A stretch of DNA of 64,000 nt, taken from an uncultured Dehalococcoidia bacterium (lineage in GTDB: Bacteria > Chloroflexota > Dehalococcoidia > Lucifugimonadales > G958296245). The notes under the pieces are model-generated. The model had not been told where the DNA came from. It searched no databases and saw nothing but the letters and a program-made list of their open reading frames with translations. Positions 27,956-58,722 of the stretch are shown in pieces. The position numbers were made by a program, and so were the translations under genes. Location of the stretch: positions 2,360,197 through 2,424,196 of the forward strand of contig OY282458.1 in NCBI GenBank assembly GCA_958296245.1, read 5' to 3'. Numbering within the stretch: position 1 is the stretch's first letter; each line of letters opens with the position of its first letter.

Positions 27956-27971
27956 ACCCTGCAACATACAG

Positions 27972-28062
27972 CAGCGTGGGGGAGCTTGGGAAGCCAGGCT
28001 GAGAGGTCCCGGCCCGAGGGGACGACCCCAATACCTGATCTGGGTAATGCCAGCGGAGGAAT
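27972..28062 (+). ncRNA. TPP riboswitch (THI box)
   Basis: The thiamine-pyrophosphate aptamer core is recognisable: GGGGGAGCTTGGG, then GGCTGAGAGG (pyrimidine-sensor CUGAGA) near 27998-28007, then GACCCCAATACCTGATC and TGGGTAATGCCAGCGGAGG ending near 28060. These match the conserved CUGAGA, ACCUGAUC and GGUAAUGCCAGCG blocks of the family. A terminator follows directly, so TPP binding is expected to stop transcription before the symporter gene. Boundaries are approximate. Confidence 0.93.
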
Positions 28063-28080
28063 ACGGATGCGCAAGTGCCT

Positions 28081-55332: not shown

Positions 55333-56630
55333 TTGAACGGCATAGGGATAGCCGTGAGTTGACCGAGCGCTGCGACGTAGTGGTGATCGGGGGAGGCGTG
55401 ATCGGGGTTTGCGCCGCCTACTATCTCGCGGTCCACGGGCGGCAGGTTACGCTTCTGGAACGGGACGAGGTCTGCTCCGGCAGTTCCTACGGCAACTCGG
55501 GGCTGATCGTTCCCAGCCACAGCATCCCCCTACCCTCGCCGGGAGCGGACAAGCTCGCGATGAAGTGGATGTTGAACCCTGAGAGCCCCTTCTACGTCAA
55601 GCCGCGCCTCGACTTAGGGCTGGCTTCGTGGCTGTGGCGGTTTCGCTCCAACTGTACGGAGGAGAAGATGCGCCGGGGCGTCAAGACGCTGACGGAGCTC
55701 AGCAGCGCGAGTATAGAGCTCTACGAGGAGGTGATCGCCGCTGAGGCGCTGGATTGTGGATTCAGACGCGATGGGGTACTGATGCTGTACGAGACCCCTG
55801 AGGGTCTCAGCGAGGGCTTGCACGAGGCGGACTTGCTGAAGGGATTCGGCCTGGCTCCCAAGGAGATGACGGGGGCCGAGACCCATGCGCTGGAACCCAG
55901 CATACGGCCTAGCGCCGCCGGCGCCGTGTACTACGACGGGGACGGCTATCTCGACCCGCAGCAGTTCGTGACGGGGCTGGCCGCCGCGTTAGCGCGGAAG
56001 GGGGTGTCGGTCCGCGAAGGGGTGGAGGTCTTGGGGTTTGGGGTCTCCGGCAGGAGTGTAGAAAGCGTCAGGACGTCTGAGGGAGAATATCGAGCAGACC
56101 AAGTCGTGCTGGCGGCAGGATCATGGTCGCCCGGCATCGTCAACAAGCTGCCATTGAAGCTTCCGGTACAGCCGGGCAAGGGCTACAGCGTAACGTACTC
56201 GAAAGCCGGAGTAACCCCGACGAGGCCGTTGATCCTGGGGGAGGCCAGAGTCGGCGTCAACCCGATGGGCGGCGCCGTGCGCTTGGCGGGCACGCTGGAG
56301 CTCGCCGGGCTCGACCTGTCGATGGACCAGCGGCGCATAGGCGCCATGGTACGCGGCGCGGCGCGCTATTTCGTCGACGACGGCTCGCCTGCGGCTGTGA
56401 GCGGCCACTGGGCCGGGCTGCGGCCATGCACCCCTGACGGACTGCCCATCGTCGGCGCCATCGAGGGGATGCACAACCTGATAGTGGCAACAGGCCACGC
56501 CATGCTGGGCATGACACTGGGGCCCGTCACGGGCAAGCTGGTTGCCGAAGTCGCCGGGGGCAGCGAAACCTCGTTGGACGTCGCCGCCCTGAGCCCCGAC
56601 AGGTTCCAGCGGCGAGTCAGGCGTCCCTGA
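55329..56630 (+). CDS. FAD-dependent amino-acid oxidoreductase (DadA/glycine-oxidase-like)
   Basis: 433 residues from the GTG overlapping the preceding stop. FAD-binding CDVVVIGGGVIGVCAAYYLAV (about residues 15-35), SSYGNSGLIVPSHSIPLPSPG and the C-terminal GLRPCTPDGLPIVGAIEGMHNLIVATGHAMLGMTLGPVTGKLVAEV are typical of D-amino-acid dehydrogenases. Oxidative deamination of a D-amino or imino acid is the likely reaction. The longer upstream frame is a shadow of the 119-residue gene. Its 3' end overlaps lysS convergently by 14 bases. Confidence 0.9.
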   Translation: MIERHRDSRELTERCDVVVIGGGVIGVCAAYYLAVHGRQVTLLERDEVCSGSSYGNSGLIVPSHSIPLPSPGADKLAMKWMLNPESPFYVKPRLDLGLASWLWRFRSNCTEEKMRRGVKTLTELSSASIELYEEVIAAEALDCGFRRDGVLMLYETPEGLSEGLHEADLLKGFGLAPKEMTGAETHALEPSIRPSAAGAVYYDGDGYLDPQQFVTGLAAALARKGVSVREGVEVLGFGVSGRSVESVRTSEGEYRADQVVLAAGSWSPGIVNKLPLKLPVQPGKGYSVTYSKAGVTPTRPLILGEARVGVNPMGGAVRLAGTLELAGLDLSMDQRRIGAMVRGAARYFVDDGSPAAVSGHWAGLRPCTPDGLPIVGAIEGMHNLIVATGHAMLGMTLGPVTGKLVAEVAGGSETSLDVAALSPDRFQRRVRRP

Positions 56631-58101
56631 GCTGCGGAAACAAGACCACCTCGCGGATGCTCCGCTGTCCCGTGAACAACATGACCAGGCGGTCGATTCC
56701 GACGCCCAGCCCGCCGGTCGGGGGCATCCCGTGTTCCAAGGCCACCAGGAAGTCCTCGTCGAGGCGGTCCATCTCCTCGTCGCGGTACTGTAGGTTGAGC
56801 GCCTCCTGCCGCTCCATGCGCTCCCGCTGGTCTACGGGATCGTTGAGCTCGGTGAAGGCATTGCATATCTCCATTCCGGCGGCGAACCCCTCGAACCGCT
56901 CCACGAGGCGCCCGTCGTCAGGACGCTTCTTCGCAAGGGGGGACATTTCGACAGGGTAGTCCATCAAGAAGATTGGCTGGGTGAGGTGGGGTTCTACGGT
57001 GTCCGACAAGAGCTTATCCAGGAGCCCGCCCCAGCTCACCTGACGGCCAACTTCTAGGCCGATACGCTTCATTTCCGCGCCGAGGCTCTCCACGTCGGGG
57101 CAGTTCAGGAAGTCGATGCCCGACCGGTCCCGTATCTCGTCCCGCAGCGTGCGGCGAGTCCAGGGCGGCGTCAGATCGACGGTCTCCCCTTCCACCATAA
57201 CTAAGGGCGACCCAGTCACCTCGACCGCGATCCCGTGCGTCAGCTCTTCCACCATGCGCATGACGTCGTTATAGTCGGCGAAGGCCTCGTAGCTCTCCAT
57301 AGTCGTGAATTCGGGGTTGTGTGTCAGGTCCACGCCCTCGTTGCGGAATATCCTTCCGATTTCGTAGACCTTCTCGAGTCCGCCGATCACAAGCCTCTTC
57401 AAGTAGAGTTCTGTGGCGATTCTCAAGAAGAGGTCTCTATTCAAGGCCCTGTAGTGCGTTGAAAACGGCCTGGCGGTCCCGCCTGCCGGTACAGAAACCA
57501 GCATAGGGGTCTCGACCTCGATGAACCCCCTAGCGTCCATCATCCGTCTTAGAGATGCAACGACGCGGCTGCGGAGAGCGGCAATGCGCCGCGCGTCCTC
57601 ATTGGATATGAGGTCGAGGTAACGGCGGCGGTACCTGGTTTCGACGTCGGCGAGGCCGTGCCACTTCTCCGGGAGCGGCCTGAGCGACTTGCTCAAGAGC
57701 TTCCATTGGCGGACCTCGACGGTGGGCTCGCCGGTCCTGGTCCGCATCAAAGGCCCGGTGACCCCGAGCCAGTCCCCAATATCGAGGTCGCGTATGCCTT
57801 GGTAGGACTCTTGGAGCAGATTTCGGCGGAGGAGGGCTTGGATGCGGCCTTGGCCGTCCTGAATGTCGAGGAAGGTTGCCTTGCCCATTCCGCGGAGCTG
57901 CATGATGCGGCCAGCAACCGACACGCAACCACCGGAGGCGGCATCGACACCCTGGCGCTCCAGAGACTCCAGGCAGGCTAACGCTTCGGCAGTGGTGTGT
58001 GTCCTGTCGACCCTGTGAGGATACGGGTCGACTCCTCTGGCTCTGATGCGGGTGAGGCTGTCGAGGCGCGCCCTGATGAGCTGGCTTTCCGGTTCCGGCA
58101 C
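56617..58101 (-). CDS. lysS: Lysyl-tRNA synthetase (class II)
   Basis: 494 residues. N-terminal OB-fold anticodon-binding domain (VSVAGRIMQLRGMGKATFLDIQDGQGRIQ); catalytic motifs RSRVVASLRRMMDARGFIEVETPML (motif 1), FRNEGVDLTHNPEFTTMESYEAFADY (motif 2) and GLGVGIDRLVMLFTGQRSIREVVLFP (motif 3). It follows greA by 12 bases; greA-lysS is a common Chloroflexota pair. Confidence 0.97.
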   Translation of the reverse strand: MPEPESQLIRARLDSLTRIRARGVDPYPHRVDRTHTTAEALACLESLERQGVDAASGGCVSVAGRIMQLRGMGKATFLDIQDGQGRIQALLRRNLLQESYQGIRDLDIGDWLGVTGPLMRTRTGEPTVEVRQWKLLSKSLRPLPEKWHGLADVETRYRRRYLDLISNEDARRIAALRSRVVASLRRMMDARGFIEVETPMLVSVPAGGTARPFSTHYRALNRDLFLRIATELYLKRLVIGGLEKVYEIGRIFRNEGVDLTHNPEFTTMESYEAFADYNDVMRMVEELTHGIAVEVTGSPLVMVEGETVDLTPPWTRRTLRDEIRDRSGIDFLNCPDVESLGAEMKRIGLEVGRQVSWGGLLDKLLSDTVEPHLTQPIFLMDYPVEMSPLAKKRPDDGRLVERFEGFAAGMEICNAFTELNDPVDQRERMERQEALNLQYRDEEMDRLDEDFLVALEHGMPPTGGLGVGIDRLVMLFTGQRSIREVVLFPQLRDA

Positions 58102-58113
58102 GGCTCCGGCGCC

Positions 58114-58584
58114 TTATTTGATCTTCGTTATCTTCAGACTGACGACGCCGGCGGGTGTCTGGATGTCGACCTCTTCTCCGACCTTGCGCCCCATGAGAGA
58201 ACGTCCGACAGGTGACTCCATAGATATTTTCCCCTCGAGAGGGGCGGCCTCGGCGGTCCCCACGACCTTGTAATTCCTCTTTTCGCCCTTATCGGTAGTT
58301 ACGGTGACGGAGGAGCCGAACTTGATCACGCCGTCGTCTCGATCCCCGGGGTCTTGGACCACGGCATCGGACAGGATCCGTTCGAGGTCCGAGATGCGGC
58401 CCTCCACAAATGCCTGCTCGTTCTTGGCCTCCTCGTACTCGGCGTTATCGACCGTCCCGCCATTCTCGCTGGCCCTGTGGATCCGTGCAGCGACCTCGCG
58501 TCGACGTACCGCCATGAGGTGGTCTAGTTCATTGGCGAGGGTTTTTCTACCCTCGGGGGTTAGATAGGTCTGTCGTCTGAGCAT
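58114..58584 (-). CDS. greA: Transcription elongation factor GreA
   Basis: Rescues backtracked RNA polymerase by stimulating transcript cleavage. It has 156 residues from MLRRQTYLTPEGRKTLANEL; an in-frame start six codons upstream is not conserved. The N-terminal coiled coil carries the cleavage tip NAEYEEAKNEQAFVEGRI. The C-terminal FKBP-like domain has KISMESPVGRSLMGRKVGEEV. The leader carries a terminator-like hairpin (see 58603-58647). Confidence 0.97.
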   Translation of the reverse strand: MLRRQTYLTPEGRKTLANELDHLMAVRRREVAARIHRASENGGTVDNAEYEEAKNEQAFVEGRISDLERILSDAVVQDPGDRDDGVIKFGSSVTVTTDKGEKRNYKVVGTAEAAPLEGKISMESPVGRSLMGRKVGEEVDIQTPAGVVSLKITKIK

Positions 58585-58602
58585 TGTCGCAGCTCCCAAC
58601 AC

Positions 58603-58647
58603 AAAAAGACTGAGCGGTTGCCGTCGCTTGCGGCCTACGCCTCAGTC
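58603..58647 (-). terminator. Leader terminator/attenuator ahead of greA
   Basis: On the minus strand GACTGAG (58647-58641) pairs with CTCAGTC (58614-58608), with an inner GCCG/CGGC stem in the loop, and a run of five T follows (58607-58603). It lies between the predicted promoter and the greA start at 58584, just before the Shine-Dalgarno. This should release a leader RNA of about 45-50 nucleotides and reduce greA expression. Confidence 0.65.
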
Positions 58648-58656
58648 AGTCCTCCT

Positions 58657-58685
58657 ATTGTAGCCGCGAATGGCGGCTTTGTAAA
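58657..58685 (-). promoter_or_regulatory. Predicted greA-lysS promoter
   Basis: On the minus strand TTTACA (58685-58680), a 17-base spacer and TACAAT (58662-58657) form a good sigma-70-type promoter, with a start near 58650. It is divergent from, and close to, the SMP-30 promoter. Confidence 0.65.
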
Positions 58686-58692
58686 ATCTCGG

Positions 58693-58722
58693 TTGACACC
58701 CAAGTTGGCGCCGCCTTACACT
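58693..58722 (+). promoter_or_regulatory. Predicted promoter of the SMP-30 gene
   Basis: TTGACA (58693-58698), an 18-base spacer and TACACT (58717-58722) lie about 45 bases before the GTG start at 58768. Confidence 0.5.

Follow-up and report, generated by a model that had tools for sequence, protein, structure and literature searches.

The greA gene considered here is preceded by a short leader in which a hairpin is followed by a run of T residues, and this raises the question of whether transcription is stopped within the leader and, if so, what decides between stopping and read-through. The greA–lysS locus lies in a stretch of 64,000 nucleotides (hereafter the window) from the 2.69-Mb single-contig genome of an uncultured Dehalococcoidia bacterium, whose named close relatives are MAGs of the Chloroflexota, Dehalococcoidia and SAR202. 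A sequence-only reading of this DNA had described a TTTACA-N17-TACAAT promoter, a hairpin with a 7-bp stem, a T5 run, a Shine-Dalgarno sequence and greA, all of which are present on the minus strand (Table 1). The 7 bp of the outer stem are formed by GACTGAG and CTCAGTC, and the hairpin begins at about +4, leaving some 3 nt ahead of the stem. The expectation that attenuation would also affect lysS fits the gene order, as lysS follows greA in 96 of the 97 loci having lysS. The upstream neighbour of greA is a divergent, SMP-30/gluconolactonase-like gene, which is faced by a promoter-like site of its own (TTGACA-N18-TACACT, window 58693-58722, plus strand).

Table 1. Features of the greA–lysS locus in window coordinates.
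Feature	Position	Strand	Basis
-35 element TTTACA	58680..58685	-	promoter match; same place in most relatives
-10 element TACAAT, 17-nt spacer from -35	58657..58662	-	promoter match; relatives compared
Predicted transcription start, A 7 nt past -10	58650 (about)	-	inferred from promoter match
Outer terminator stem, 5' arm GACTGAG (putative)	58641..58647	-	sequence, folding, covariation
Inner hairpin and loop, variable among relatives	58615..58640	-	folding, relatives' leaders
Outer stem, 3' arm CTCAGTC	58608..58614	-	sequence, folding, covariation
T5 tract, predicted end of ~47-nt terminated RNA	58603..58607	-	sequence, relatives, T-tract position
Shine-Dalgarno-like GGGAG	58593..58597	-	sequence
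greA, 156 aa, tip ENGGTVDNAEY	58114..58584	-	ORF; GreA_GreB N and C domains; ATG 58584
lysS, 12 nt 3' of greA	56617..58101	-	ORF, domain evidence

Folding of the predicted RNA of 45 nt gives -19.9 kcal/mol (z -2.9), a stability equalled by 2 of 200 shuffled sequences. The 68-nt leader taken whole is no more stable than its shuffles (z -0.43), and because this energy is unremarkable the argument is carried by comparison with relatives. A simple terminator scan made no call at the greA leader hairpin, since the inner hairpin enclosed by the outer stem is interrupted, and a folding-based scan was therefore used instead; the same scan also picks up E. coli GraL. It detected a hairpin plus T-tract (E <= -9) in 74 of 102 greA upstream regions, compared with 13-17 of 102 after dinucleotide shuffling. 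Terminator-like structure was likewise found downstream of 71 of 98 greA promoter sites, the figure for control promoter-like sites from elsewhere in the window and loci being 18 of 301; the 98 sites include a few from outside the Chloroflexota and, the sequences being related, these counts overstate the number of independent events. Where the hexamers of the greA sites are perfect, 30 of 33 precede a hairpin and T-tract.

The hairpin has the properties of a premature greA-leader terminator: by sequence and folding it lies on the same strand as greA, between the promoter and the start of the gene, and it is conserved at the orthologous gene in relatives. The earlier reading had made its case depend on such conservation, which was found among the relatives examined. 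Within the order, a terminator was scored in 29 of 36 distinct greA leaders, one of which (L010) bears a hairpin of a different kind. Inspection of the printed leaders showed that three others (L008, L009 and L027) keep the stem with a degraded T-tract and that L021 has a hairpin which the scan missed; L117, L120 and L123 are the only leaders of the order clearly devoid of a terminator hairpin. L117 and L120 belong to AT-rich relatives with 1.4-Mb genomes, in which the TTTACA promoter is retained and the leader hairpin lost. Across the 34 leaders with CTGAG-type stems, 96.3% of stem cells are paired, versus 28.8-51.7% in slid controls, and the covariation score of the stem, to which three invariant pairs contribute no information, was reached by 0 of 500 shuffles and lies far above the slid controls. 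When the genome was searched with a covariance model built on the hairpin, a single good match was obtained, at greA (32.4 bits; the next scores 14.2), and the model's 17 best matches in 59 relatives all fall just upstream of greA, as checked against a protein search. Phylum-wide, 44 of 88 greA leaders score for a terminator and about half are without a clear one; CTGAG/CTCAG stems reappear in distant Chloroflexota, and other lineages carry different stems in the same place.

Together with the position of the T-tract (see below), this conservation, covariation and gene specificity give good support to attenuation at a leader terminator, as originally suggested, and we consider it likely that the greA–lysS leader contains a promoter-proximal intrinsic terminator. 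RNA polymerase would initiate at the TTTACA/TACAAT promoter and transcribe about 47 nt, with the hairpin folding while the U-tract is copied; a fraction of transcripts would then end at the T-tract, with read-through giving rise to the greA–lysS mRNA. Termination of this kind in cells, which we infer from the comparative data, would probably limit the amount of greA and lysS made. Since there is almost no RNA ahead of the stem, an alternative upstream fold is improbable as the switch between stopping and read-through, and the choice would probably be set by polymerase-bound factors or by polymerase movement (GreA, NusA/NusG or the NTP level).

GreA itself is a candidate for the signal. In E. 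coli, active GreA boosts termination in its own leader to form a negative loop: it raises GraL and lowers greA read-through, in a manner that depends on the leader sequence and requires D41 (PMC6829880). Autoregulation of this style would refine the attenuator explanation, and the gene, its layout and the restriction of the motif to greA in this genome are all consistent with it, but the catalytic tip is not. Both D41 and E44 are in contact with the catalytic Mg (PMC7527559). Aligned with E. coli GreA, without gaps around the tip, the protein encoded in the window has Gly at the former position and Asp at the latter; the catalytic D41 associated with GraL-type control is thus absent. The leader was moreover retained in 37 of 42 genes with the D41-to-Gly change, compared with 43 of 77 genes with Asp and 29 of 56 with the D41-to-Glu change, in a scan that undercounts Anaerolineae with A-rich tails. 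The leader is kept both with and without D41 and therefore does not track this residue. Reproduction of autoregulation in vitro also failed even for E. coli (PMC6829880), and we hold the E. coli-style loop only as a tentative refinement, rather less probable than its absence. It is possible that GreA acts by a cleavage-independent route, and a still more speculative and on balance unlikely proposal is that, in the Dehalococcoidia/SAR202 type, a Gre factor lacking D41 controls its own operon, at early elongation, via a terminator kept at a constant distance from the start (about +40) with no need for RNA cleavage. Across the genomes compared, the tip (window 58445-58460, minus strand) is Gly/Asp in this lineage, Gly/Asn in some relatives and Glu/Glu in Anaerolineae.

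Could the hairpin be a stabiliser at the 5' end of the mRNA rather than a terminator? Protective stem-loops are expected at the very start of a transcript, and in most leaders of the order the stem does start at +0 to +4 from the predicted start. Against this, most leaders have a T-tract after the stem, and the hairpin begins at +13 when short and at +3 when long while the T-tract holds near +40 in both cases; 20 of 10,000 permutations gave an equally tight result, a figure that is not a clean probability as the sequences are related. Over the greA promoter sites the T-tract ends at a median of +44 from the predicted start (sd 7.7), and the distance from stem to ATG is loose (sd 30.3). Given that the T-tract stays at about +40 for short and long hairpins alike, the termination point looks like the selected feature, and selection appears to act there and not on the 5' end of the RNA. 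A stabilising role is therefore quite improbable, and termination remains the preferred function of the hairpin.

A classical attenuator, in which a ligand-binding or leader-peptide antiterminator governs the terminator, would have precedent in the published greA-leader models of other phyla, which contain an antiterminator (PMC2965389). Here, however, given the predicted start, the roughly 3 nt before the stem leave no space for an open reading frame or an alternative fold, and no aptamer or antiterminator of the riboswitch or T-box kind lies upstream of the terminator. An Rfam search matched no family to the greA leader, and we regard such an arrangement as very unlikely. The 5' arm of the hairpin could also base-pair with a CTCAG that lies within codons 2-3 of the greA reading frame, a pairing that would postdate the termination decision. 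Elsewhere in the window there is a TPP riboswitch (27968-28079, plus strand, 56.2 bits). Finally, although the free energy is by itself only moderate, a chance origin of the hairpin, or a role for it in terminating a different gene at its 3' end, is scarcely credible in view of its conservation, the shuffle and promoter-site controls and the divergent orientation of the upstream neighbour, owing to which no co-directional gene ends there for the hairpin to terminate.

The terminator preferred here joins a recognised group. In a ranking of gene families by how often a premature terminator precedes them, greA/rnk comes seventh, with examples from Proteobacteria, bacilli and Clostridia (Naville and Gautheret 2010, PMC2965389); a Chloroflexota greA leader is not among them. 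As in E. coli (GraL, RF01769), a promoter-proximal terminator composed of hairpin and T-tract is predicted before greA, and the leader RNA is short (37-59 nt for GraL, about 47 nt predicted here). The two differ in the sequence of the stem, which is unrelated, in the number of nucleotides before it (about 3 here, 18 in GraL), in the presence of lysS downstream of greA here and in the GreA tip (Gly/Asp here, Asp/Glu in E. coli). RF01769 covers Enterobacteria, E. coli scoring 127.5 bits, and its covariance model found no match in the window (E <= 5) or in the relatives tested. The greA leaders of bacilli and Clostridia also have predicted premature terminators before the gene, but their models, unlike the leader here, contain an antiterminator (PMC2965389), and Bacillota stem sequences such as AAGCACTG...CAGTGCTT differ from the present stem. 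In bacilli and Clostridia some of the structures returned by our scan were leader hairpins and others probably the 3' terminators of genes lying upstream, and no leader rate was therefore derived there. The suggestion that the device is convergent is in keeping with the failure of the enterobacterial Rfam model to match the window; it is nonetheless unproven, as similar leaders occur in several phyla and shared ancestry with them is possible. Premature greA terminators are thus already known, and for the Chloroflexota case, with its unrelated sequence, we found no report in the literature searched, which is not proof of absence. The leader adds a further phylum to those with premature greA termination, its sequence being unrelated and its position similar, and suggests that early termination is a general means of setting Gre-factor levels. 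The occurrence of the same leader with D41-bearing and D41-lacking GreA offers a comparison that bears on whether autoregulation needs transcript cleavage.

A second Gre-type gene (L002:1495-2310, minus strand; G000:C1:282043-282495) encodes a Gre domain whose catalytic tip has Asp/Glu. A terminator hairpin was looked for upstream of this gene and none was found. Its product carries a helical N-terminal domain of about 100 aa ahead of the Gre domain, the predicted fold of which resembles the N-terminal domain of tyrosine recombinases (3nrw the best match of this kind, E 5.7e-4; lambda integrase weaker), and long-frame homologues of the gene were found across the order.
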